64,000 nucleotides of DNA from Hypomesus transpacificus (taxonomy: Eukaryota > Chordata > Actinopteri > Osmeriformes > Osmeridae), in the NCBI RefSeq assembly GCF_021917145.1, contig NC_061072.1, positions 7,729,391 to 7,793,390 on the forward strand, in the 5' to 3' direction. Every line of letters starts with the position of its first letter. Within the stretch, counting starts at the first letter, position 1. The position numbers were made by a program, and so were the translations under genes. The notes under the pieces were generated by a model. It was given only the letters and a program-made list of their open reading frames with translations. It was not told the DNA's origin and did not search any database. Positions 8,511-55,530 of the stretch are shown here, in pieces.

Positions 8511-9043
8511 CATGCGCATGCTCCTACTCCTTTGACTCCAGATCAGACTAGTTGCAGAAGATTTGAATGGTGTGTTTCATGTAAAACTCAAGCTTCTTGA
8601 TTCCCCAAAAGTTCAGAACATCGCTCCCGTATAAAACAGTTACTGTACTCCACAGATGGATGTTTGAAGTCATAGGAAACATTCCACTTGTTTGACTATC
8701 ATCCTTTTGTACACATCTGTGGAAGTGATCCACATGAAATTAATTACCCTCTGGGTGCTTTCTGCTCTGCTCTTAATACTCTTCTACCTTCGCCTGGTGG
8801 TTTCCTGAATCCGCTCTCCTCTGTTCCAGAAGGTGACTGTCCAGCTCTCTGAGTTGTTTCAAGAAACCCCAGTTTGGGATGATTCTCCTGCAGTGTTTTA
8901 CGTGGTCGACGGCATCAACAACTGTCATGTTCCTGCAGATCATCAGGTAGGCCAGGAAGAGAGTTGCTGAGCGGCTTCTCCCCATGACACAGTGCACCAG
9001 AAGCTTATCTGGAAACACAAGAGATACAAGGGAGTACTACTAG

Positions 9044-9304
9044 GGTTAGGGAAACGGCTGACCTTAAAACTAAGCCAACAACAGGTTTACAGTGAGGTGT
9101 GGTAGCAGAGTCAAGATCAGGATTAGTTATAGCCAAAACCCTATCCCCAAGTCTAACCCTAACCCTAAATTCAACCCTAAATTTAAAAATGGGGGTTAGG
9201 GAAATGGCTTACGTTAAAACTAAGTCAACAACAGGGTTACAGTGAGGTGTGGTAGCAGAGTCGGGATTAGTTATAGCCATAACCCAATCCGTAAGTCTTA
9301 TGGT
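9044..9304. repeat. Two-copy tandem repeat of about 150 bp in dusp29 intron 2
   Basis: The segment starting GGTTAGGGAAACGGCT at 9044 recurs from 9194 with a few changes; both copies contain CAGTGAGGTGTGGTAGCAGA. Between them are short telomere-like CCCTAACCCTAA units. Confidence 0.85.
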
Positions 9305-9816
9305 TAGATATATTATGTATATATATATCGGCACTTGTGTTTAAAGTAAGACACATGTTTTATCGTACTCTCTGGATTACTGAGTGTCTGGTGGATGAAC
9401 TGGGAAGAGGAGTGGAAATATTGGCTGAGGTTGAAGGTGGGGATGTCTTCTGCCACTACTCCATAGTAGACCACGTCCATGTCGCTGTAGTAGCCCGCTC
9501 CCGTCTCCACGTTATTCCAGGTTCCCTCTGCTGCGTTCAAGATGTGAGTTATTCCCAGTTTCTTCAGATTGTATTTGTCTTTCGCAGTCTCTCTGTCAAA
9601 GTCAAGATTTTTAGGGGTTAGAGCCGAGGGATGTGTGGACAGCTGTAATGAACGACCTCCTCCAACTGTCAAATTCAATTTGGTGATTTATCCTTTTCTT
9701 TTAGGCTGTGAGATAACAGCTGTGTGTACTTTAACATCGAGGAGTATCTCTAATTCATAGCAAACAAAAAAATTCCCCCTTGCCCACTTACTCATCTCCA
9801 ATGTAGACGTTAGGCC

Positions 9817-11148
9817 CAGCGGCGTAACAAGGACTTGGCAGGCCCGAGTGCAGATCTCACCAACGGGCCCCTTACCGACCTATCGTCAGGCGAAATTATT
9901 GAGTTTTCAGTTTAGCAATGCGCAAGGAAATTTAGGCTACTCATGATGTACAATTAAGGGTAACGACTGCTCCTTCTATGTGAAGATAGATTACGGTTTT
10001 CAAAGAAGAACGGCTCAGACTCGCGAGTCTCTGGCTCTAGATTATGCTTGCTACAACACGGAATGAGCATAATGGAACAGTCAGTCATGAGCCGACGTAT
10101 CTGAGACGTTTGAAATAGAGCACGGAGATGAGAAGAAAATCTGATCATTTACCGAGGCTTATCCGACGTTATGAATGACGTTTCGATCTGTCATGTGTGC
10201 TATCTGGGTACTAGTAAAAAAAAAACAGTCACTTCGATGGTGAATATTTGATTTTATGTTCGTTAGATATGCTAGTTTACATTTAGTCTATCTAGCTTTA
10301 GCTATTTTCCGACTACATCCTGCACATAGTTTACTATATCTAACCTGGCCGCTGCCTGGTAGCCTAGGCCTATATGTGCATTTTTATGACGTTTAATAGC
10401 CATGTCAACTGCATACACCAGACCGTAAACGTTATATAATTATTAGCCTACCCTGGTGGCTGAGTTTCACACTCATTGCTGTTGCCGGGCTGGGGGTCAG
10501 ACGTAGCGTCCTCTTCAACACGCTTCGCCACAATCCAAATGAGCATAGTTTTGACAGCTTTGCCACCCTTACATCTTGCTCTTTTCGTTCCTGCCGCTTT
10601 CTGGAGCCACTATTATGTTAAAGGGCATGGCATGGGGTAGCCTAATTCGCTTCAAAACACTAATGCAACACAACTGTAGTATCCCAACAACAACTGTCTG
10701 TGGTATTCCAACAACTGGATGGGAACAATCGTGTGTGGGTGGGCGGGAATCTTTGACAACAATATTACCCAGACATCCTTGCTATTTTTCGAGGGCAATA
10801 TTACTTAATAAAAACGACATTTGTTTCATTCAGCAAAAGGCAAATTAGGAAAAATTAATTATTTGCTGTTGTTAACACTGACTGTTTTTAAAATGTTTAT
10901 TGGGCTGGTGATAGCTCATAATTCTGAATAACTGACACCATAATTAAGAAATGTTTGCGAATTGATAACACTGGATCATATGTGATCCTCAACTTGCGGT
11001 ATTACAGCGGTGCAAGGGGCCCGGTCAGATTGCCTTAAGGGGCCCGGTCAGGTTGTCTCACTTTTACGATGAGATCGAGGACGGGCCCCCTTTCGCCACG
11101 GGCCCTAGTGCAGCTGCACTCCTTGCACTCCCTATAGTTACGCCACTG
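9817..11148. mobile_element. hAT-superfamily DNA transposon (non-autonomous) in dusp29 exon 1
   Basis: The element is 1332 bp. The left end is CAGCGGCGTAAC (9817-9828). The right end, reverse complemented, is CAGTGGCGTAAC (11137-11148), so 11 of 12 bases match. An identical 8-bp direct repeat GTTAGGCC flanks it at 9809-9816 and 11149-11156. An 8-bp duplication with CAG...CTG termini is diagnostic of the hAT superfamily. GGGCCC-rich subterminal motifs occur near both ends. No open frame inside resembles a transposase (longest about 90 codons), so it is probably a deletion derivative mobilised in trans. The matching target duplications suggest a fairly recent insertion. Confidence 0.93.
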
Positions 11149-11310
11149 GTTAGGCCACACCTCATTGACGTGAGTGTATGCCACACATCCACGGTTGAGG
11201 ATTTTATCAAGCTCATAACCCCCAGGTGTGACATATTCATCCACAGGATCAGAAGCTTCTGCCTTGTGAACATTCATCTTCACACCTGCCTTGGAACGGC
11301 GAGAAGCCAT

Positions 11311-13619
11311 TTCTCTCACAATAGCTTGCTTTCACACATGATGCACTCCCTCGGGATGATGAGCTTTGCTGTCGGATTTCGTTCTGTTTTCCACACAAAC
11401 ATTACTACGAGAAAGAGGCATTGTTTTTAATGTCAGCAATCTTCTTTTGTTTCTATTTGTTTGGAAAGCAACTGCCAATTCTATACAGTGTTAGAATCTG
11501 GGTTAAAAATGCTAGACTACTTACCAAACGATTCAAATATATCCTTTTCACAGAAGGCATACATTGTACTTTGGAGAGCATATTGTCAAACCGTTATCAT
11601 TTCAAACCTACAGAACTGCTTGACTTTTAATTCTGGGAGGCTGGAGGCTGGAGCCAGAGCAGAGGTTGTGTAACTGGTCTGTGACAGGCATCAAATGAAG
11701 GATATTTTTAGGGCTGTGATGCGGCAGGCCCCTGACCTTAGCTGCTGAATGACTTGCCTGTAGGGAAACGTTCGTCCCAGACCCCGCCGTCCACTACTCA
11801 ACAGAGCCTGGAGCTTTAATCTCTGCCACAGGCGTGAAGCTGTGCTTATCCAAATCTCTGCACTTGCCAAAGGATACCCACATTCAGTCAAGTGAACCCA
11901 GCCATTGCAACCTTCAGCTCAAGCACGTTCTATTAAATGGTGTCATCCGATAGTCTCTCAGCTTGACATATTACAGCCCTCAGAAGGTTTTAAAACCTCA
12001 TTGTAGAAGACGGAGGGCTTTGTGACTTCTGTTGGGATGTTTTGAACCTTTTAGACTCTCACTGCCAGGAAAGGGACACGCTGTAACTGGGCTCTGTTGA
12101 AGACAAGACTTTTTGAAAATGCTACACACACTACATTTTCAGCCGTGTGAAGTTCATAGCACATTCCTTGATCTCACTGTGAACCCCAGAGTGTAATGAT
12201 GATTCCAGAGTGTGGAAGGTCTGAATGGAGCTGGTAACATGTCAGACTCATCACATTTCCACTCTTTTTTTTGGATTCACATCTTCATGAGCTGCCATCA
12301 TTCATTCTGACAGTGAAATCATTAGAGCTGTGATATTCGATTCCTTTTATTATGACAGCATCTCTCTCTCTCCCCCCCCCCCCCCCCCCCCCTGCGCTTT
12401 GGAGCGCATCTGTTATTAGGACAACTTCACTGTTTCATCTTTTTTCAAAGTTTGACCTGAATCTGTACACACCCTCAGAACCGTACTGGCATATTTCTGT
12501 CATCTCAAATCAAGACTCTTTAAAGCTTCTTGGTATTTTACAGCGCGATACTGTATTTCAGCAGTTGAGACACAGGATTATGTGAAAGTGAACTTGAGTG
12601 TGGTATTATTTATTTATAGGTACATACACTTCAAGTTACATGTTGCTCCAAAATAGCACTTGTCATGTCTAATATTCTACTTACATTGGCATGTATCAAA
12701 CAGACGCAAAAACAAGAATGATCGCTGGTTTGGCTTAAAATTGGTTGTACAGTGGGGTGACCAACAGCATTGAGGAAACCAGTCAGGGAGTCAGGTGGCT
12801 GAGCGGGTAGAGCATCGGGCCAGTAACCTGAAGGTTGCCAGTTTGATTCCCCGTCGGTGCACATGACGTTGTGTCCTTGGGCAAGGTACTTCAACCTACT
12901 TGCCTCGGTATGTTATTCGGTATGTTAGCGGTACACGAAACGGGCATGAACTCCACTCTATTTGTGTGTTTTCTTACCAACACTTTTTATTTCCCCAGTG
13001 CCTTCTCCCTTCAGTCTTTAGAGCGTCTTCCCTGTAGAAGACAAACAGATCTTTCCATATCTTCTGGAACGTCAATAGTCAGTGTAGATGTTGAGGTCAT
13101 TATAAACCTCAGCCTCACTTCCCTGTCCAGAGCTGACAGCTGAACATTCCTTGGCCCAGGCAGGGTGGGCGTGGCCTCGGCTGGTGACTGTGACAGAAGC
13201 CAGGAACAGCTTGGGAGGAAACAGCAGGTGCTGGTAGCTCCACCAACGCTTCCAGATGTGCAACTCTAATTGAAGTTTCAGACTTGATATTGTTAGCAGA
13301 CACACTTTTCAATAAAAAAACAGCTCTTCTAGGCTTTCTGAAGTATACAATATCAACTGTAGGTTTTAAGGGGTTTATTAAGGGATTTACAGTATTTTTT
13401 TTTTGCAGTCTTATTATTTTATTTACTCTGCATCACTCAGACCTAGAATAGAACATACTGCCATGCCAGCATTGAAAGCACACATACTGCAGACACATCT
13501 ACTCTTCTACCGCCATATTTGTTTTACAGCTACATGTGATTCTGATAGGCTGGTCTCAATTGGTATTAAAAGTGCGTCTAAAGATATTGTGTCTGTGGTC
13601 ATCTGCCCTGATAGTGAAG
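11311..13619. other. Intergenic between dusp29 and the dusp13b-like copy
   Basis: I see no coding exon here. The stretch holds a C run at about 12372-12392 and a truncated SINE at 12787-12910. The part right of 11310 is the 5' flank of dusp29 and may carry its promoter, but no clear TATA or initiator element could be assigned. Confidence 0.6.
12787..12910 (+). repeat. tRNA-derived SINE, 3'-truncated copy
   Basis: It shares the tRNA-like head (A-box-like TGGCTGAGCGG, B-box-like GTTTGATTCC) and the body (ACGTTGTGTCCTTGGGCAAG, CTACTTGCCTCGG) with the copies at 21972, 30003, 42166 and 51576. It lacks the tail GCTCTGGATAAGAGCGTCTG. Confidence 0.85.
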
Positions 13620-15345
13620 CTATTTGTCCAGCGCTCTGAGCTGTTCCAGGAAGCCGGCGTTGGGACAGATGTTCCTGCTGGTGCTGACTACCTTGATGGC
13701 CTCGACCAGAGTCATGCCCTCATGGATCAACAGGTACGCCAGCACCAGGGTAGCGGAGAGACTCAGGCCCATGGCACAGTGGACAAACACCTTACCTAGC
13801 GAGGAGGAGGAAACACAACATGGTTTTTAGTCACGGCATGCTGCAGGTTTCCACTCCTACCGAAGCCGTAGTTCAGACTGTTCCCAGACAGCTCTGATCC
13901 TCCCTTCCTCTCCCTGTAGAGCAGCCTGCAGATCAACATAGGTTCCTTTCACACTAATTGCCTTATTTGTTACTTCACTGTGGATTACAGACCTGTGTAC
14001 CACAAAGTGGAATGTTTTTAACTACTCCCTAAAAGTTTTGACAATGTTGCAACAAATGTTTCTACACATGGTAATCCTGGGTTTCTTATCATGCATGAGG
14101 ATTAGGGCCCAGAGGAGCGCGTAATTGAACTGTCTGCTAGGCTGTGTATTTCTTCTGAGGATTACTGCGCAGGGCCTGCTACACACCGAAGACTACGTCT
14201 TCCACCATCCTGGGAGGGAGGAGGCCTCATCTTATTACTGTCATGTCTCAGATTAGATGCACTCTGCATAACAGGAGCAGAGCAGGCCACAAACATAATT
14301 GTGTAATTTCCATGTCCAATGAAAGTGTTGCTTACAAATTACCGGGCCAAGCCATTTAAAAGCAATTTTCTCGTCCAAGGTCTCGGCTTATGAGGAGATT
14401 ACCGTGAGGGATGATATTAGCTTGATATTGTGTTTAGTGTTTGATTTGCATTCTAACTGCTAATGCTAGATAGGATTGCTGTGGTACGGCTTGACAGACA
14501 AACTGATGTATGTATAAAGAGGAAAGACGTTGTCTGCTGTGTGTTAAGTCCTGGTGGGGTCAGCAGGTATAGCCTACTCTACAACATCATGCATCACCAA
14601 ACACCTTGATTTGTACATGGGTAGAGTTGTGGCTGTGCTGTTCATGTGAATTTCCTTCCCTTTGAGACTTTTTCCACAAACTCACAGCACAAAATGTCGT
14701 TTTTGATTTTGACTGAAGAGTTTCTTTAGTATTTATAGAAAAGAGAAGTACTGTAGCTGTGGGTGTGCTCAGGGCAGTCCTGGTGAACTGGGCTGATGAG
14801 TAGAAGAATGGGCTCATATCAAAGGACGGCATGTCAAAACAAAAGCCTCTATTCTGAGGTAAGTGATTTTGGTGTCTCTGTAGAAGCTGGGCCCGATGTT
14901 CATGTTGAACTTCCCGTCAGCGGCGTTCCCTACGTGAGTGATGACGATTGCCTTCAGGGTCCTCTCGTCCTTGGCTGCATACCTAAGTGCACAAGTGTCC
15001 GACACTTTAAAGGAGCACATGCTCATTTTTGTATTTAATAACACCATTTGGGTTTGTGACTGCCTTGTATGTACAGTATATGGCTTGCCCATGCACAGTA
15101 TACTGTAATGTAGTTTGTGGATCCAATGTCCTTTGATCAAAAATATATCCCAGACAAACTCTACTGTGACACTAAAAGAGAGATTCTCACATGTCCCCTA
15201 TGTAGATCTGGGGATAGACCTCATCTAGAAGGCCGCGGGTTCCAGGCTTGGTCCACATCAGCCTCTGAAGCCTGGAGGCCAGGGGCATCTCGTACCGGCT
15301 CTCCCCCACCTCAGTGCGCCCCAAGCAGCTGCTCCCCCGGGGCAT
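13620..15345 (-). pseudogene. dusp13b: dusp13b-like (TMDP-type) phosphatase, degenerate
   Basis: The three-exon architecture is recognisable: exon 1 15345-15191 (ATG 15345, donor GTGAGA), exon 2 14982-14757, exon 3 13795-13620 (stop TAG). LQRLMWTKPGTRGLLDEVYP, MYAAKDERTL and [17 protein letters not shown] resemble the testis-type DUSP13B more than DUSP13A. Three lesions are visible. (1) A tandem CAAAA duplication (plus strand 14835-14844) adds 5 nt after the IEA motif and leads to an early stop. (2) The expected exon 2 donor at 14756-14755 reads CT instead of GT. (3) The active site reads [10 protein letters not shown], so the HCx5R arginine is Leu (CTC). Without the 5 nt, the exon lengths sum to 552, a multiple of three. 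Exon 2 also reads THVGNAADGK where THVxNAA is usual. I call it a pseudogene; sequencing error could explain one lesion but hardly all three. Confidence 0.8.
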
Positions 15346-17425: not shown

Positions 17426-18791
17426 CTAAAGAATCACACAGGCTTTCCTTTTCCCTCTCAGCTGAAGATCCAGATCCAGCAGTAGTGCCAGGAAGTTCCT
17501 GTTGGGGTAAACGGCCCTCTTCTTCACCACTTCCTGGAGGGCATGACGGAGGGGGATGTGGTGATAGAGCATGAGGTATGCCAACACCAAGGTGGACGAG
17601 CGGCTCATTCCCATGATGCAGTGCACCAGTACCTTCCCTGGAGCAAAGAGGCGAGGGAAAGGAAGGGAGAAAGGATTAGCGAGAGGCCTCCGTCTTATTA
17701 ATATCATACATGACTGCTTGTCTCAAACTGTGGCCCTTCCAGTCCCTACTGAGGGATAAAAATAGTGTCCACAGTTCATTGCCTTTGTTCATTTAAGGTC
17801 CCTTTGCAGACAGGCCCAGGCTGTCAGGTTCATCCCATACTGTCCTCTTTCTAAAAGGAGTTGGGAGAAGATCCATGGTTGACTTTATAGACATTATGCA
17901 AGGTAAGGTTCTTTATTATTGCTTCTTTATGGATGAAAACATACAGTATATGATTGAGTATACAATTATAAGTGTAAGCCCAGGTGACAAGAGTTGTCTT
18001 TAAAAAGGAAGCACCTGAAATGTTTTTGTACAAGGCTTTTATTTGCATCAAAAGGTCTGAAATGTGTTCAGTTTGGTGCAAAATAGACAATAGGAGAAAA
18101 AAAAAACTTACCATCTGATGTTTTTAAAGCTTTGTGAATGAAGTCTGCAGCAGGTTTGAAGTAAACATTCAGATCAAAGTGAGTAGAGTCATCTGCTGGA
18201 ATACCACAATACACAAAGTCGTTGCCATAAAACCTTTGGTTTCCTATGCTGCCTCGCTTGGAATGCGCAGCATTTAAAACATGAGTGATCCCTAATCTCC
18301 GCAAGGCTGTCGTGTTTTGGGCTATTGCCCTGGTAAGACAAAGAGAGGAAACATGAATAACTGTTCTGATTGCTTCACAACTGTCCAGTACATATCATTT
18401 TCCAAACCTCTCAGAAAGGGTATTGAAAATGCATACTGTATTTACACAAGCCTAGCCATCAACCTAAATCTGATACACAAGGTAATATGATGACATAACA
18501 TTCCAAAACAGTTTTCTATCTATTGCAACACAACTAGGCAGTTTCATCATTGGAATAATGTACAACTTTCAAAGTAGGCTACCACAAGATTTATTATTCA
18601 ATGTTTATTATAAACTAGTGTAAGAGCATTGGAATATAAGTGAGAGAAAAATACTGTACTTACACATTTCCAATGTATACGTTTGGCCAAACCTCATCTA
18701 TCTGATTCAGCTGTAGGTTACATGAATCCAAAACTTTTTGTAGGTCCTTCACAGACAGATACTCCTTTCTCATGTTGTTTACGGATGTCAT
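17426..18791 (-). CDS. dusp13a: dusp13a-like dual-specificity phosphatase with C-terminal CaaX box
   Basis: Exons are 18791-18664 (ATG 18791; donor GTAAGT), 18329-18112 and 17637-17426 (TAG). The total is 558 nt, 185 residues, normal for small atypical DUSPs. Exon 1 encodes a short N-terminus ending [13 protein letters not shown]. Exon 2 has [15 protein letters not shown] and the acid-loop region PADDSTHFD. Exon 3 has the complete P-loop [10 protein letters not shown] and [11 protein letters not shown]. The family dephosphorylates phospho-Tyr and phospho-Ser/Thr; DUSP13A (MDSP) is muscle-expressed in mammals. The protein ends [11 protein letters not shown]: a polybasic stretch followed by Cys-Val-Ile-Leu, a CaaX motif whose final Leu favours geranylgeranyltransferase I, so membrane attachment is possible (inference). 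It is one of two dusp13a-like copies in tandem and more divergent from human DUSP13A ([12 protein letters not shown]) than the next one. Confidence 0.85.
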
Positions 18792-19265: not shown

Positions 19266-20413
19266 TCAAGCCTTTGTGCGTAATTTCCTATTCAAAGCAC
19301 AGAGCTGTTTCAGAAATCCTCTATTCGGAAAGATCCACCGTCGCTCTTTGACCTTTATAATGGCGTCCATTAGGGAGTAGTGGTGATGGATCATTAGGTA
19401 GGCTAGAACTAGCGACGCAGAACGGCTCACTCCAACAGCACAGTGGACAAAGACCCTAGCTGGAGAATAAAACAACAGGTGAAAATCATCCATGATTATT
19501 CATAGACTAACGGTGTGTGTCCACTACAGCAGAGCGAGCGGCGGGTAGTGTAATATTTCAGAAAACATATTTGTGAAAAAAAAGTAGTGGAAATAATAAT
19601 ATTTTCTATATGCTATAAAAATGTCTACTGCTCAGTAGGTTTTTTCCACAACCTTTTTTCAAAAATCTTCCTGAAACTTTTGAGGGGAAACTTTTTTATA
19701 ACTTATTATCAAAAATATTAGCGAAAAATACATTATTGGCCATGACTACAACAGTGACCTTGGAAAACTACAACTCTGTATCAGCCTAACTTGTCTGAAA
19801 CGCACCCCGAGCGTGTTGGGGCTACTGCAGGAAGGCAAGCGGTGCAGAGCGTTAAACAACGCTGTAGTGGACACGCACCGTAATGGTATCCATGGCTTAA
19901 TGAACTAGGCTATTCCATTCGATGATTCTTTACCTCCTGGTGTGTCAAGTGCATTTTGTATGTACTCAGCAGAGGCATAAAAGTAGCGTGAGAGGTCAAA
20001 AGAGGGAGAATCGTCAGCCGGGACCCCATGATAGTCCACAGAGGATCCATAGAAATCATTACTACCTTGACAGTACGCCTTTCCGTGAGCAACATTAAGG
20101 ACATGCGTGATTCCCAGCTTCCATAAACCGTATCGGTCGTTGGCCGCTGACCTGAGTGATCATAATCAACAGGGGGGAAATACAGTAATCTCATCAAAAG
20201 TAGGCTACATTCCAAATATCAAATTAATCTTCCCTTGCATGTTATGCACAACAATAAGTAATGGTTTTGAATGACTTACATGTCCGCAATGAACAAGTTC
20301 GGCCAAACTTCGTCCACGTGATTGCCAAACCTTTTACCCCCGTACAAAACCCTCTCCAACTCTTTCACTGTTTCAGCGTCAGATGAAACATTGTTCTTCT
20401 GGACATTACACAT
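19266..20413 (-). CDS. dusp13a: dusp13a (MDSP-type) dual-specificity phosphatase
   Basis: Exons are 20413-20280 (ATG 20413; donor GTAAGT), 20151-19934 and 19459-19266 (TGA). The total is 546 nt, 181 residues. Landmarks are [13 protein letters not shown] at the end of exon 1; [18 protein letters not shown], the Tyr-Cys-Gln-Gly segment, [20 protein letters not shown] and FIHRAL-like YIQNAL in exon 2; and the intact active site [11 protein letters not shown] plus [18 protein letters not shown] in exon 3. [16 protein letters not shown] and [11 protein letters not shown] closely follow mammalian DUSP13A, so I take this as the better ortholog candidate. Intron 2 carries a Harbinger-like MITE. Its start lies about 2.3 kb from the divergent samd8 start codon, so the two genes share an upstream region. 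Confidence 0.88.
19511..19880. mobile_element. PIF/Harbinger-like MITE in dusp13a intron 2
   Basis: The 370-bp element begins CGGTGTGTGTCCACTACAGC and ends with the inverted copy of CGGTGCGTGTCCACTACAGC (19 of 20 match). It is flanked by a direct TAA at 19508-19510 and 19881-19883. A 3-bp TWA-type duplication points to the PIF/Harbinger superfamily. No coding capacity. Confidence 0.85.
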
Positions 20414-22705
20414 AACTGTGACCCATCAGATTTCAATATCTAACCAATTCATCTCATTTGGCTGTTAATATGCGACCATGCGGGTGACAGTGACAGGTGT
20501 CTTTGCCGTAGACTAAAACTAAAAATAGTGACCCAATGTGTATATTAAGTTACACATGTTTACATTTGGGACTTTGGGGATTCTGCAATTTATTATGAAC
20601 AACATGTAATTTTGATATGAAAGACATTAAGTCAGAAAGTAGAAAATGTAAATCATTGTTTCAAAGTTGAAGTGTGGTAGTACGCATAGTTGACCAGCAG
20701 GTGTCAGTATTCCCTTTCATGGTCTATGTAGGCCTACTGTACAATGTAACATAACTGCGCATCTCTTCTCATAGGTACGGTTCTGCCCATTATGTGGTCA
20801 ACGCTGATGTAAAGTAGCGTAGCCAACCTGTGAGAAATGATTTGCATCAACCCTGTCATCGAAGTATATGCAAAAACAGATTCTAACTGGAATCCGGTGA
20901 GTATTTTCCACGGGTGTCCAAATAGCTTCAACCACCTAATTAACTGAAGTCCTGTTAGCAATGGACAATGGTCAACTATTTGGTAGCAGCTAGCTAACTA
21001 GCTATTGACGTGGCTAGGTAGCTAACGATATTCAGTCTTCCCATCATCTCTCTGGGTTGGCGTAAGACGAGCTGTGTGTGTTAGAGCTATATTAACGTTG
21101 AAAGCTTTATTGTTACGTAGCCAGCTAGCTTGACACATGGATGTCTGCGTTAACCTGTCTAGAGCTAGTGTTAATGCTAGCCAACATCTCATCTGTTTTT
21201 TGTTTTGCTGTCAGTTCGTTTGTTGCAGCCAGCACTGTTGCATAGCGCCCCCCCCCCCCACTCCCCCCCCCATGTGTTACGGATTTACATAGTCAAGGAC
21301 ATGGATTGTGTCTCGCCAGAGAAAGCTACAATGTGGTCTGCACTATAGTTTAATGATAAGCATCTCGCTGACTGGCACTGACGGACAATTGATACAGTGT
21401 ATCCCAACTTACTGGAGTTATTCAAGACAATGTCAATGCTGCATAAACATGATTCTCCACAGTTGTATTAATTCCTCTGTCTGATGCAAATTCAGTTCTA
21501 AATTTGTATAACGATACTGCATACCGATACAGATCTAAGCCAGAAGGCGTAAGTGAGAATAGTGTCTTAGGTGAGCCTGTCGTTCAAAAGCAATGAGTAC
21601 AGTGCGTTTCTGACCTATTTTTTTAAGTTCTATTTGCTTTGATAGCCTAACCTTAAATTCTTTATTTGACAGTAATCTATGGTCAATTAATTTAATTGGT
21701 GTTTAAATAGCAAACAACTGGTATACTCCTTCACCTACTTCAAGGCTATAATTAATAACAAAGAATAATAGAGGGCGTGATCCCCATTCAGCAAGCTTTC
21801 CGTTCAAATACATAACTGTTACCAACAGTTTGCAACATCAGACTGGCCAAAGTTGAATGCAAAAGCTCACTCTGTATGTTAGTTTTTTTTAGGTGTTCCT
21901 TACAAGACAAGAGGGTAAGAGATAAGAGTTGTATGGGTTTGAAGTAGTGTGTCCTTTAGCTTGAATACACTTTACATTTACAGTTAGTCATTTAGCAGAC
22001 GCTCTTATCCAGAGCGACTTACAGTAACTATAGGGACATTCCCCCCAAGGCAAGTAGGGTGAATTGGACAAGGACACAACGTCATTTGACACGGCGGGGA
22101 ATCGATCCGGCAACCTTCTGATTTCTAGCCCGACTCCCTCACCGCTCAGCCATCAGAACACTAGTGTCTGGACTTCCCCCAGTTCAGAATCAGACATTAC
22201 TGGAACTGTCTGGGTCTGTTTTTGGAATGATTACGAAATGTTGTTTAGCAGGCGATAAAAACTGACTCTGCTGATTCAATCGAAACTGGGAATCTGTTGT
22301 TCTCTAAGACTTAACCACGGGACTGTTTTTTAAAGAATAAAAGAAAGATATTGCAGTAGTTCCACTTATTTTCATGTTTGTCATCTCTGAGACCTATTCT
22401 GGGTGTGGAACTTCTGCCCTGAGTTCTTATGCAGCACACTAACACAGTCCCCCCCCCCCCCCTGCTCAAATCATTAAACAGCCATAAATAGGCCTGAAAG
22501 ATGAAGCGATTGTGCCAAAATCTTGACTGAGATCCTTCTCAAAATCTTGTCTTGTCTTTACTTCGGTGCTGTCTCGAGACACAACTTTGTCACATTTCCT
22601 TGGTAGCGTCACCCATGACCCATACCAGGGTCAGTATCTGTGTGTCACTTCCTGCAGCAAGTCACCTGTCGCCTTGTTTCTTCTCTCAGTTCTCAGAGTA
22701 GGGAG
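20414..22705. other. Divergent dusp13a/samd8 upstream region
   Basis: This is the interval between two divergent genes. A candidate untranslated first exon of samd8 could end at 20896 before a GTGAGT donor, with a candidate acceptor (TTCTCTCAG) at about 22689 just before the start codon; both are weak calls. It also holds C runs near 21247-21271 and 22449-22462 and a SINE at 21972-22157. No coding exon is supported. Confidence 0.5.
21972..22157 (-). repeat. tRNA-derived SINE, minus orientation
   Basis: It reads as the reverse complement of the 30003 and 51576 copies: tail first (AGACGCTCTTATCCAGAGCG), then the GGCAAGTAGGGTGAA body, then the tRNA-like head (B box near GGGGAATCGATCC; A box CCGCTCAGCCAT). 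Confidence 0.92.
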
Positions 22706-28853: not shown

Positions 28854-31068
28854 ATGGCTGTCCCCCCCTCATACGGCGACCTTGGCAAATCAGCGAAGGA
28901 TATCTTTAATAAAGGATATGGTGAGTTTAATTAAAATTAGATCATATTATTGACTGACCTTTAAACATGTCATCTTTGACATTAAATATATATAATACAA
29001 AACCTGCACACAAACGCTTGCTTTTGGCAAAGCCATATAATTAAGTTGCTTTGAACAATGTTGTGGTCGTTATATTTTCCCAGGTTTTGGATTGGTGAAA
29101 CTTGATGTGAAGACTAAGTCCTCAAGTGGAGTGGTGAGTTAAGCTAATAAGGATGGTGTGTCCAGTGACGTAGGGGAATGTGAAAATGCCATACTATAGC
29201 TTCTACATGTCCTAAGTGATCCTTTTATTCGTGTAGGAATTCAAAACCTCTGGCTCATCCAACACGGACACCAGCAAAGTCAATGGGAACCTGGAAACCA
29301 AATACAAGTGGGCTGAATATGGGTTGACATTTACAGAGAAGTGGACTACAGACAACACACTTGGGACAGAGATTACTGTGGAAGACCAGGTATGCAGGAA
29401 AAAGACTGAGCCGTTCATGAAACGCACTGCAATGGAGTGTGTTTGGGGAATGTATCAATGTTAATGAAATTGTTTTGATGTAGTAATTTTTTTCTCCTTT
29501 TTAGATTACTAAAGGGCTGAAACTTACATTTGACACCACATTCTCACCAAATACTGGGTATGTTTTGCTGTAAAACAATCAATCATAGTTGAATATGTCT
29601 CACCAGGCCTTTCAGTCAAATGGGATGTGCAAGAAAAATGACAAGGGAGCCATCCCAATGCTTTGTGTAACCTAACTATACATGTACTGGATACAGAGTG
29701 AATTGTGGGATCCCGTTCATGTACCTATTTTCCTGTGTACTGTTTCACAGGAAGAAGAGTGGAAAGGTCAAAACCGCCTATAAGCGTGAATATGTCAACC
29801 TTGGCTGCGATGTAGACTTTGACTTTGCTGGACCTGCCATTCATGGGGCTGCCGTGGCAGGCTACGAGGGCTGGCTGGCTGGCTACCAGATGACCTTCGA
29901 CACGGCCAAATCCAAGATGACCCAGAGCAACTTTGCCGTTGGTTACAAGACCGGCGACTTCCAGCTGCACACCAATGTGTAAGTATCTTCTTCTAGTTGG
30001 AGGGGGGTCAGATGGCTGAGCGCTTAAGGAGTTGGGTTATTAATCAGAAGGTTGTTGGTTCGATTCCTGGCCGTGCCAAACAACGTTGTGTCTTTGGGCA
30101 AGGCACTTCACCCTACTTGCCTCGGGGAGAATGTCCCTGTGTTTACTGTAAGTTGCTCTGTATAAGAGCGTCTGCTAAATGTAAATGTAGTTTCAGAATC
30201 AGAATTTGATTTATTCGCCATGTATGTTACACAAACACAGAATTTACTGTTGCAGGAAGTTGCCATCAATAAACATATACGGATCTTAAATTAAGTAAAG
30301 TATAATATTTAAACTAATTCTAAGAACTAAGCAATTAAAAAAATAATATATAACATTTACATAGAAATAAGAATACGTTTCATTAGTCTTTCACAGAAGA
30401 GAGGTAAACAAAGTAAATAGAAAATGGCAGGGGGGGGCGACTGCAAATCTCCAACGGCCCCCCACATACAGACTAGGAACTGCTAATGTTTGTGGTTCAT
30501 GTCTATGTTCCAGTAATGATGGCACAGAATTTGGTGGGTCCATCTACCAGAAGGTGAACGACAAGCTGGAGACTGCTGTGAACCTGGCCTGGACCGCAGG
30601 GAGCAACAGCACCCGCTTTGGCATTGCTGCCAAGTACCAGCTGGACTCCACTGCCTCCATATCTGTAAGTGGTTCTTGTTCTTCTAGTTAATAATAGTCA
30701 TAAGTGGGTACTATTGGGAAATCGATAGTCTGGTACATTGCATTTAGATGTTATTTGTAATGTTTTAGTTAACTAATTGTGCTGCTTTTGTTTAATTTAT
30801 TATTAAGGCTAAAGTGAACAATGCCAGCTTGGTGGGAGTTGGCTACACTCAAACTCTACGGCCAGGTGAAAACTAGCTCTTGTTTACATAGCACCCCTTA
30901 CACTTCACCTCATAGTTGCAAATAAATACATCTATTTCTCAAATTTGAAAACTCAAACGTCTTCTCTGTTTTGCAGGTATGAAGCTTGTCCTTTCTGCTC
31001 TGGTGGACGGAAAGAGCATCAATGCTGGAGGCCACAAACTGGGCTTGGGGCTAGAGTTGGAGGCCTAA
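28854..31068 (+). CDS. vdac2: vdac2 voltage-dependent anion channel
   Basis: Eight coding exons: 28854-28920, 29084-29133, 29237-29389, 29505-29557, 29751-29978, 30514-30664, 30808-30865 and 30977-31068 (TAA). They sum to 852 nt, 283 residues, the standard VDAC length. The N-terminal helix ([20 protein letters not shown]) is followed by beta-barrel strands. The membrane-facing glutamate in LTFTEKW, the [15 protein letters not shown] segment, [31 protein letters not shown] and the C-terminal [10 protein letters not shown] are all present. VDACs form the 19-stranded pore of the mitochondrial outer membrane for ATP/ADP and other metabolites; VDAC2 also recruits and regulates BAK. The protein alone resembles VDAC1 and VDAC2 about equally, and lacks the mammalian VDAC2 N-terminal extension. 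The vdac2 name rests on the samd8-vdac2-comtd1 synteny. Intron 5 carries a SINE. Confidence 0.95.
30003..30190 (+). repeat. tRNA-derived SINE in vdac2 intron 5
   Basis: Head with A-box-like TGGCTGAGCGC and B-box-like GGTTCGATTCC, body CAACGTTGTGTCTTTGGGCA and CTACTTGCCTCGG, then the tail ATAAGAGCGTCTGCTAAATG ending in TAAATG units. It is nearly full length. It begins 25 bases after the exon 5 donor. Confidence 0.93.
30191..30480. repeat. Probable degenerate interspersed repeat in vdac2 intron 5
   Basis: TTTGATTTATTCGCCATGTA TGTTACAC and the following A-rich sequence resemble a dispersed repeat common in fish genomes, but I see no termini or target duplication. Low confidence. Confidence 0.3.
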
Positions 31069-31925: not shown

Positions 31926-32346
31926 AACTATTGTTTCAAGAATGTTTTTAACTACTAACTAGACCTGTATTATAGAGGTACAGCACCATTTTCAATAGAC
32001 TTTGGTTTATGTTGTATGTCACGGTGCATTTAATTAAAGATTGATCTCATTCAGTAACAAACCATGTACATTAAGTAGACACGTTCAGGCTTTGATATTT
32101 GTATTCCATGAACTAAACAGATGTACCGTGTGTACACACTCACAATACTCTTGTCATTTTCGTACTCACAAAGGAACAATTACATTATCCACAATCTTAA
32201 CAGTTGAGCTATAACATTGACGTTAAGGAACAGAGACCTGATAATAAGACATGGTAAAAAAATAAAGGGATTCTAATAGAAACCCGCCTTACCATTAAGG
32301 ACAGTTACCTGATTGTCATTACTTAATGGAAACACAAAAGCAAAAG

Positions 32347-34725
<2,379 letters not shown>

Positions 34726-40600: not shown

Positions 40601-42165
40601 TACACATCTCCTAATTCCCATTACTGTGTGTGCATTGTGGCCTTATCAGGGAGAACAGTAATCCAGTTGTCAGCAGGACCAATCATATGAGGAGGCCTGT
40701 GACAGTGCGAGTGCGTGCCCATGATTCCTCCCATCCCCAGTCCTCCCTGTGACCTCTGCAGGCTTGCGTGGGCGGTGGCAGACATAGGGATGCTAAAACT
40801 CCAGCCAGAACAGTTTGCAGATGAATCAGAAAATTGGATCTTGCTCATTTCATAAAGAGGAGCCCCAAAAATAGAGGGCTATCTCCTCAGTCGTAAAGCT
40901 GTCACCATGAAATGTCTCTAGCAATGATGATACTCGATTCTGCTACCTCCCCTGACTCCCTGGGCCCCTGGCCGCTATCTCTTCCTTTCAATTATATGTT
41001 TCTCTGCTCTTTTAGACAAAGAGTAATAAAGCTATAAATCGTCTATCTGCAGAAGGTATAGACATTCTGTCTGTGAACTGCTGTTGAGACTGCCATAAAC
41101 CACCCACAAAGTCAAAGATAAGGATTTACAGTTATTTAACATCCTCCTTGTCCCTTAAATCACAGTGATAAGAGAATTAAGTGATGACTATAGGTTCTTT
41201 GTCCTCTTGATATTGATTTTTTAACAGAGCGGGCCGGTGCAGTATTTTTATTGAGCACCCTATTTGCCTCCAGTCTACAGAGTAAAAAGGTACCGCTCCT
41301 GATTCAGCCACAAGGGTGTTGGCTTCACAAATACCCAATTCCTTTATCTGCAAACTGACTCCAGTTTCAAGTTATTTTCAGACTCTGTTATTCAATATTG
41401 TCGTAAATCAAGGGTCAATATTTTGCCTGCAGACAATCTGCAATTAGAAGACAGCAAATCTTGTGGGTGATGTATGAATGTTAAATGGTAATCCTAAGAG
41501 CAGATGTCAGAGCTCTCTCAGTGTCCTGGAAATAGATGCACAGTTCAGTCAGAATAGGAATCACATCTCTCAGGAGAAAACAAACAGAACAAATCTCTTT
41601 TATAAAAGCGTCTCTTGAAATTGTCAGTTGTATTTATATGAAGTGTAGAAAAAATTGGCTTGTTAATGGAAACATTCTTTTGCCTACCCTCAAGAATATT
41701 GTTCCCTTTTCTTTGTGCGGCATGTCCTAGTTTAAACAAAGACGTGTTTGGTACAGCAGAGGCTAGTTACTTTAGCGTGAAAACGTGTGTGATGATGCCT
41801 CCAAGAAAAAACCAAAACCCTTCACATTTAATAACTCAGTGACGTTTGCCTTAAAGATGTTGACCCTGGAGCAATGCTAAATGTCAACCAAGAGGATGTC
41901 CAGTTAACAAGACACACCAACGTCAACCAATCGTCTTATTATTGACTGACAAAGCATAAGACCCTGTAATCCGATTCCATATGCTACATTGTATTTTTCT
42001 GGTAAAGGATGTAGATTTGTTGAGATCTGCTTCTTGTTTGTTTCGCCCTGGGGAACCAATGTCAGTTTCAGTTCCAAGTCACTGGCCAGGCTGCAGATTC
42101 AACTCCACAGCGTGCCGTACAGTGTGTTCCTCCTTGATGAGGGGGGTTTCTCATTCGCTCTGAAT

Positions 42166-42356
42166 ACATTTACATTTATTCATTTAGCAAACGCTCTTAT
42201 CCAGAGCGACTTACAGTAAGTACAGGGACATTCCCCCCGAGGCAAGTAGGGTGAAGTGCCTTGCCCAAGTGCCTTGCCCATTTGGCTCAGCCGGGAATCG
42301 AACTGGCGACCTTCATATTACCAGCCCGATTCCCTCACCGTTCAGCCACCTGACTC
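42166..42356 (-). repeat. tRNA-derived SINE, minus orientation
   Basis: Same family: tail AACGCTCTTATCCAGAGCG, body GGCAAGTAGGGTGAAGTGCC with a short local duplication of GTGCCTTGCCCA, then the head with the inverted B box (GGGAATCGAAC) and A box (CCGTTCAGCCACC). Confidence 0.92.
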
Positions 42357-51575: not shown

Positions 51576-51785
51576 GTCAGATGGCTTCCCAAGTCAGATG
51601 GTTGAGCAGTGAGGGAGTCGGGCTAGTAATCAGAAGGTTGCCGGATCGATTCCCCACCGTGCCAAATGACGTTGTGTCCTTGGGCAAGGCACTTCACCCT
51701 ACTTGCCTCGGGGGGAATGTCCCTGTACTTACTGTAAGTCGCTCTGGATAAGAGCGTCTGCTAAATGACTAAATGTAATGTAATA
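51576..51785 (+). repeat. tRNA-derived SINE, nearly full length
   Basis: The head starts with a short duplication (GTCAGATGG twice). The B-box-like GGATCGATTCC, the body ACGTTGTGTCCTTGGGCAAG and CTACTTGCCTCGG, and the tail AAGTCGCTCTGGATAAGAGC then CTAAATGACTAAATGTAATG follow in order. It is the best reference copy in the window. Confidence 0.94.
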
Positions 51786-53221: not shown

Positions 53222-55530
53222 CTAACGTGTGTTCAGTGACCTCAATGTTTGGTGTTGATGATGAAGATGCTTTTAACAATAACTACTCCTGGACACGGTG
53301 ACACATGGCATGCAGCTGTCCACAAAGCGACGGGCATTCCATAATGTATGTACTGTATGTGGAGTACACCATTCTAAACGTCAACATTTGTCTATGACCA
53401 GCCGGCGTACACTTGCAGTCTTCCCTTGGTCAAAGGGCCAGAAATCTTCCCCTGTGCCAACGTTCAAAGCAAAACAGGTGGCAGTTACAATGATTCAGTG
53501 TGGAGTCACTTACCCAGACACCCTCTTATGTCCTGACAATATTTGAGGTTGGAGCATGTGGTAAAACAGACTCTGTCATTGCGGTGTGATTGAGAGGCTA
53601 TAACCTGTCCTGGGTGTGGGGTGGATAAGAGGTCATGGAGGACACATAGAGGCACACTGTCTGGATGAGTACAGGGCTGGACCACATGGGGAAATACACC
53701 TTTACCAGGTCATCTTTTCTTTTTTCTTTTTTAACTTCTTCGACAACTATTTTTTTTTTGTATAATATACTTTACAAGGTTAGAAGAAACTAAAATGGGC
53801 TTCCTGTGTGTTAGATGCAATGTTATTTTGGTGTGAACTGCCCTGACTGTCCAGTAATAAAGAGGCAAATTAAATTCAGAGCGCCTGTAATATTTTTATT
53901 TTTACTATTTCAGACTGATGGGCTATGTGATAGAGACATCACACCCAAACAAGACCCTTTACAGCGGCCTAGTTGCTGTTGTAAATTATCGGCTACAAGC
54001 ATCGTTACCAAACATCATGTAGGCTATGGTAAGGCTTCATCTGTGAGAGTGGAGGTCGATTTGATGAATATGACATATGACCGTTAATGATGTAGGTCTT
54101 ATCTCTAGAGAATAGAATGATTTACTATGGATGGATAATGACATTGTTTGTTTGATGCCGGAGCTCTGTTAAAAGGGCTGATTAAAATTATTAGGCATTG
54201 CTTCATTTCACGCCACTTGGTCCACGGATTCATTACTGCAATCACAAAAGCTGTGGAAATGTGTCATCATAAATCATAGTTTAGCTGCGGTTTATACCAG
54301 TTGCCTGTTCCTCCATTTTTACTGAGAGTTTAATCCATGACCCCATAATTGGACGAAATTAAATATTTCTCCGTAAAAACCCTGGAAGTACCAAAATTGG
54401 ATCAGTAGCCCGGTATAAACATTTTAGACAGATAAGCGAACACACAGGAACACACGACTTCGGCTTATTAGCATTTAAACATTCATTTTTGAAGTTTCTC
54501 CTAAAATCCAGTGAGATGGTCGTTTTCCTAACTGGTTCCATAACTGATTTTTTGATGCGTTAACAATCCATCCAGAACAGCTTTATAATTTCCAGCCATT
54601 GGGAACTGTAAGGCAATAGCACCATTCATGTTGGGAACATCTTTAACACTCCAACGTTATGAATTATAATTGTAGAAATAGCCTACATTGTACCTTATTT
54701 TGACTGATTTCGTATATGTATGGCCTATGACAAAAATACAAACCATGCTCGCAGATATATCATGTATTTTAAAAAGTGTTTCCACTGTTTTTCACAGTGG
54801 CCTGGCCGTTTGGGTCTGCGCATATACGGCCTAGGCCATGGCTAATCAAACTGATCCAAAATAGAAGCCGCAAAGTAACTTGCCGCGTCAGACATTTTTA
54901 CACTGAGCAAGTAGGCCTAACATCAGCATGCACTGTCTCCATTGAACCTTGTCGAACTGGTAGCAACTGCATTTCAGAGATAATCAGTGGCCTAACCTAC
55001 TTTCTAATGTAGAAATTGGGAAATATGTATGCTATACAAAAACCTTTTGTATAGTGGTGTTCTGAAAAGAGAACACGAAAAGCTGGTTTCTGTTGAAAGG
55101 AAAGTATTACCTGTGAAATGCTGTAGCCCAAAATATTTTGCAGACATTTTCGCAGAAATGTCTCCCTAAATAGTAGACTTGTGACAAATTAACTTTACAT
55201 TTCAGACAAATGTTTGACTAATCAGTAGCGTTACGTTTTGGCCTATTCTCATAAGGAAATTAATTTCCCTTGCAAAATTACTCAGTTGAACTCAAATGTT
55301 ACCACAGTTCCATGGGCAAGATCATATGGAAAGATTTGTATTATCAAAATATTTAGACCACTCCCAAATATAACATCAGAATAAAAAACTTTCTATACAA
55401 AAATATAACTAGAAGCCTACAGTTTATAGTCAGCAAAGAATATACATTCATGCTTTAACAGCATTGTTCATTTCGATCTAAATTGTGAAATAATGCACTT
55501 TGAGCCTTTTGCAAATTATATTATAATTAT

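Follow-up and report, generated by a model that had tools for sequence, protein, structure and literature searches.

The window, a 64-kb stretch of fish DNA, carries on its minus strand the phosphatase gene dusp29, which reads as three coding exons over 11310-8773, the first of them extending, as written, from 11310 to 9792 (Table 1). The product of exons 2 and 3 finds its best match (among 120 listed of 323 matches) in a DUSP29-like protein of Osmerus mordax, with 92% identity and the whole query covered, and its best solved structure is DUPD1 (2y96). Exon 3 contains the H-C-x5-R loop of the active site, HCVMGRSRS. In buffalo, DUPD1 is reported to show muscle-biased expression (PMC13228153).

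Coding exon 1 is split into two parts by a 1332-bp element. The insertion lengthens the exon by 1340 nt, which leaves a remainder of 2 modulo 3, and translation as written halts after 91 residues, 37 beyond VWPN and before HCVMGRSRS. The original prediction had stated that the active site in exon 3 lies out of reach in frame, and the stop after residue 91 bears this out. The empty site was reconstructed by a script that joins the flanks and keeps one GTTAGGCC repeat. Translation of these joined flanks restores the predicted frame across exons 1-3, 639 nt including the stop, or 212 aa, and the proper GTAAGT donor expected after exon 1 is in place on the minus strand.

Table 1. Positions of the features at and around dusp29, numbered from the first base of the window.
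Feature	Position	Strand	Details
dusp29 coding exon 1, 5' part	11149-11310	-	ATG at 11310 to HVNEVWPN
dusp29 coding exon 1, 3' part	9792-9808	-	VYIGDE, then GTAAGT donor at 9791
dusp29 coding exon 2	9369-9592	-	
dusp29 coding exon 3	8773-9008	-	active-site loop HCVMGRSRS and early TAA stop
Non-autonomous hAT-type element	9817-11148		1332 bp; 12-bp terminal inverted repeats
Target-site duplication copies	9809-9816 and 11149-11156		GTTAGGCC; exact 8-bp match
Left terminal inverted repeat	9817-9828	+	CAGCGGCGTAAC
Right terminal inverted repeat	11137-11148	-	CAGTGGCGTAAC
Subterminal cluster of four GGGCCC	11017-11105		starts 11017, 11040, 11083, 11100
Fifth GGGCCC	starts 9865		48 bp inside the element's left end
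dusp13-like locus	13602-15324	-	P-loop HCAMGLSLS; frame break near 14840
Copies of ~190-bp repeat	12786-12908, 21972-22157, 30007-30189, 42165-42355, 51592-51783		

Upstream of dusp29, the minus strand carries three further loci for dual-specificity phosphatases, at ~13.6-15.3, 17.5-18.8 and 19.3-20.4 kb, and their best solved relatives are, in this order, DUSP13, DUSP26 and DUSP13 isoform A. The first of these, the dusp13-like locus, has Leu in the place of the catalytic Arg, and its second exon is interrupted by a frame break; it therefore looks like a pseudogene, in contrast to dusp29. The other two (~17492-18746 and 19278-20380), for which the gene models are partial, show no lesion in the exons read, and they might buffer a loss of dusp29.

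The surroundings also hold several repeats. Five copies of a ~190-bp repeat, the first of them partial, are ~76-91% alike pairwise and by eye have a tRNA-like head, and they probably represent a SINE family. An open reading frame of tandem RARAPIK-type repeats at 32326-32730 (+) lies over a tandem array with copies 98-99% alike, probably a minisatellite. Within dusp29 itself, intron 2 contains an imperfect direct repeat (86%; 9043-9154 and 9193-9298).

Anatomy of the element in coding exon 1

Members of the hAT superfamily typically generate an 8-bp target duplication and possess short terminal inverted repeats with a CAG start as well as repeated subterminal motifs. All three traits are found in the element within dusp29: an 8-bp duplication, CAG-type inverted ends and repeated subterminal motifs. 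Its termini read CAGCGGCGTAAC and, in inverted orientation, CAGTGGCGTAAC, identical at 11 of 12 positions, and they are the only two exact matches in the window to the terminus pattern that the original prediction had given.

The predicted exact duplication of 8 bp, GTTAGGCC, is likewise present at both junctions. This 8-mer is not rare as such, as it occurs four times in the window against 1.28 expected, a count that 5 of 100 shuffles reach; its weight comes from its position directly at both ends of the element. With the ends given, identical 8-bp flanks would arise by chance with a probability of ~1.5e-5. Two other copies of GTTAGGCC form a pair starting at 54914 and 54989, with CAGTGGCCTAAC at 54985, which was judged by eye to be a chance occurrence. 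The subterminal motif GGGCCC is present five times in the element, each copy at most ~132 bp from an end, and six times in the remaining window; when up to 5000 random stretches as long as the element were drawn, none matched its count.

The longest ATG frame within the element is 77 aa, and no transposase was recognised, with no Pfam family found at E values up to 1 in 10 of the element's 22 listed reading frames; the element is therefore filed only as non-autonomous and hAT-type. No further copy exists elsewhere in the 64-kb window, and one 33-base element end has no exact match in viral contigs. By its anatomy the element is a non-autonomous hAT-type transposon, an assignment made on the general traits of the superfamily and not on a match to a named family. 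The prediction of a hAT-type insertion of 1332 bp in the first coding exon of dusp29 is thus upheld by the inverted ends, the 8-bp duplication and the subterminal motifs.

Empty sites and the condition of dusp29

When the literal 91-residue translation was used as a query for empty sites, 30 proteins were returned, and all of them read uninterrupted across the insertion site; neither a fusion with the element nor a second carrier of the insertion was found among these 30. O. mordax, a smelt and the closest named relative among the matches listed, is without the insert, and the empty site that the original prediction had proposed to seek in related fish is consequently at hand. Of the 60 coding positions compared in exon 1, seven have a different residue in O. 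mordax.

A closer counterpart is the 97-aa protein P0121, which is encoded on a separate ENA contig of 892 bp and represents the empty site. It is identical to the empty-site reading of the window at 96 of 97 positions, that is, at 60/60 exon 1 coding residues and at 36/37 codons of the preceding untranslated stretch. P0121 has W where the window has TGA, which could reflect either a base difference or a gene caller's reading of TGA as W. The protein stops at GDE, where the genomic DNA of the window reads TAA across the exon end and the GTAAGT donor, and 27 of the 30 returned proteins end likewise at the exon-intron boundary; P0121 is therefore most likely derived from genomic DNA, not from a spliced transcript. 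It lacks the insertion and no footprint is visible at the protein level. Judging from its protein, P0121 probably belongs to the species of the window or to a very near relative; a speculative candidate for its source is the draft genome of Osmerus eperlanus, for which reads are deposited in ENA (PMC5240625).

The claim that the insertion is the only lesion of dusp29 needs to be qualified. The frame is otherwise intact, which supports the claim, but a TAA stands at the position of a Gln in O. mordax and makes the C-terminal tail 15 residues shorter than in that species (8743-8787, minus strand). Past this TAA the window still reads EQSRKHPEGN, matching O. mordax, and the C-terminal tail also contains a 4-residue gap. 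The 11 fish proteins compared have tails of differing length. P0152, encoded on a single 1312-bp contig, is identical to exon 3 of the window over 70/70 residues, early end included, and the short tail is therefore read as a trait of the lineage and not as a consequence of the insertion. The smelt-like protein P0153 carries the longer tail, so that the short form is probably derived.

Decay of the remaining gene was assessed in a set of 99 sequences, composed of the window and 98 of the 120 listed proteins (the best 120 of 323 matches), with 22 proteins left out because they fell outside the length range of 195-235 aa. At none of the 82 columns conserved to at least 95% does the protein of the window differ from the consensus, and at one of 96 columns conserved to at least 90% it does. 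The test is a mild one, since no departure is seen in 46 of the 99 sequences, among them the window. On the protein reconstructed from the joined exons, the conserved parts of dusp29 appear to be without excess decay.

These observations bear on two alternative readings. The insertion might be fixed or common and dusp29 in the course of being lost, with the short tail as an early sign and with paralogues that compensate. The premature stop relative to O. mordax would agree with such a loss, as would the three related phosphatase loci ~2-9 kb upstream, two of which are without lesion in the exons read. We consider it unlikely nonetheless, given the empty-site reading in a near-identical sequence, the conserved sites without an excess of substitutions and a tail that varies in length among fish and whose early end is shared by P0152. 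Alternatively, the P0121 contig could represent a second, recently duplicated dusp29 locus, the copy in the window being a redundant duplicate. In sea bream, muscle is reported to express two DUPD1 paralogues that are 51% identical (PMC3418159). The identity of 96/97 over exon and 5'UTR would, however, require a very recent duplication, and the 64-kb window contains no second dusp29 copy; we regard a duplicated locus as improbable.

Splicing across the element

The original prediction had left three options, namely a recent natural knockout, a segregating insertion, or an element that is spliced out as a new intron. In the last case the element would be removed from the pre-mRNA and dusp29 would still make protein. 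All GT and AG sites between the ATG and the native donor were scored with approximate human frequency matrices, and several results at first sight speak for such removal. On these approximate matrices, an acceptor in the element at 10210, on the strand of the gene, scores 11.7, compared with 4.5 and 10.5 for the gene's own, and a donor at 9875 scores 7.7, compared with 5.5. Among 99 x 100 donor-acceptor pairs, 18 that span at least 60 nt and overlap the element reach the active site in frame; so do four donors spliced directly to exon 2, and ten two-intron paths drawn from the better sites (15 donors and 15 acceptors).

The quality of these paths nevertheless argues against a new intron. The element's best donor is ordinary for its length, being equalled in 293 of 500 random stretches of the window, while its best acceptor lies in the upper 13% (64 of 500 stretches as good). 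Exact removal of the 1340 nt was rejected as a candidate, as the intron has neither an initial GT nor a terminal AG in any of the nine registers of the target duplication, and on the approximate matrices no usable sites were found close to the element's termini that would remove it in frame. The best in-frame single intron (summed score 7.1) takes away nearly the whole of exon 1 and with it VYIGDE, presumably strand 1 of the phosphatase fold. Pairs that keep VYIGDE have sums below 0, compared with ~10 for native intron 1. Each of the four donors spliced directly to exon 2 has a negative score, and these as well as all ten two-intron paths skip VYIGDE.

A start driven by the element was rejected as well. 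From no ATG within the element does the frame stay open as far as the active site without splicing. Six element ATGs could reach it through a splice to exon 2 (donors scoring at least 3), all skipping VYIGDE, and in two of these the splice destroys the ATG itself; the four that are left are an unlikely rescue. From the low in-frame splice scores and the loss of VYIGDE it follows that a functional DUSP29 is unlikely to be produced from the insertion allele, as far as the sequence allows one to predict. We accordingly hold removal as a new intron, with protein still made, to be very unlikely. A version in which the element has just become an intron, or is exonised, giving carriers an altered DUSP29 N-terminus while the empty allele segregates, seems to us similarly remote.

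Two other systems invite comparison. Ds of maize belongs to the hAT family, and Ds and Ds1 are hAT-family insertions in genes, as is the element described here. Ds1 is reported to supply three donor and two acceptor sites (PMC5432752), whereas no well-scoring in-frame path that restores the protein is present in dusp29. Introners resemble the element in that a transposon with terminal repeats and a target duplication lies in a coding exon; they create introns, whereas the ends of the element here bear no splice signals (PMC9860276). No report that combines a hAT transposon, intron gain and fish was found in the literature searched, nor one that brings together smelt, the O. eperlanus genome and dusp.

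An assembly artefact that placed the element in the exon by a false join is scarcely credible: the insertion is seen in one assembly and in none of the 30 proteins matching the 91-residue query, but a mis-join is not expected to give complete inverted ends together with an exact 8-bp duplication.

A probably recent and still segregating insertion

We favor the reading that dusp29 was recently knocked out by a hAT-type insertion that is probably still variable and probably not a new intron. Of the three options, a young, segregating null allele is thus preferred on account of the near-identical empty-site reading in P0121, and the new intron is the one disfavored. A non-autonomous hAT element, with transposase supplied from elsewhere, would have landed recently in coding exon 1 and duplicated 8 bp of the target. 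The insertion would destroy the frame, with 37 codons read past VWPN and a stop before the Cys-x5-Arg loop, for which reason the allele is most likely null; its RNA would be a likely substrate of nonsense-mediated decay. The near-identical empty-site reading, the absence of the insert from O. mordax and the lack of excess decay together suggest that the insertion is young and probably segregating, with the empty allele still present within one species. The window and the P0121 contig would then probably constitute an allele pair. For the joint reading of a recent trans-mobilised insertion, a broken frame, a most likely null allele and a young, probably segregating state, we estimate a probability of roughly 80%.

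Non-autonomous hAT elements generate the 8-bp duplication as well, and typical MITEs are shorter than 1332 bp. Non-autonomous hAT elements and hAT MITEs such as Mar of Drosophila are described as having inverted ends and no coding capacity, as is the case here (PMC3517528). The closest precedent in the sources cited is Tol2 of medaka, a hAT element whose insertion in the tyrosinase gene gave an albino allele with 8-bp target duplications (Koga et al., 1996, in PMC8151067), and which thus likewise combines a fish gene, 8-bp duplications and loss of function. At ~4.7 kb, Tol2 as characterised there contains its own transposase, whereas the element in dusp29 measures 1.3 kb and none was recognised in it.

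Altogether, the locus would offer a clean natural loss-of-function allele within a genome assembly, together with an empty-site counterpart for comparison, and the insertion would serve as a simple presence/absence marker. The case also points out that the apparent absence of a gene may mirror one haplotype, and it draws attention to a family of DNA transposons whose activity in this lineage of fish may be very recent.
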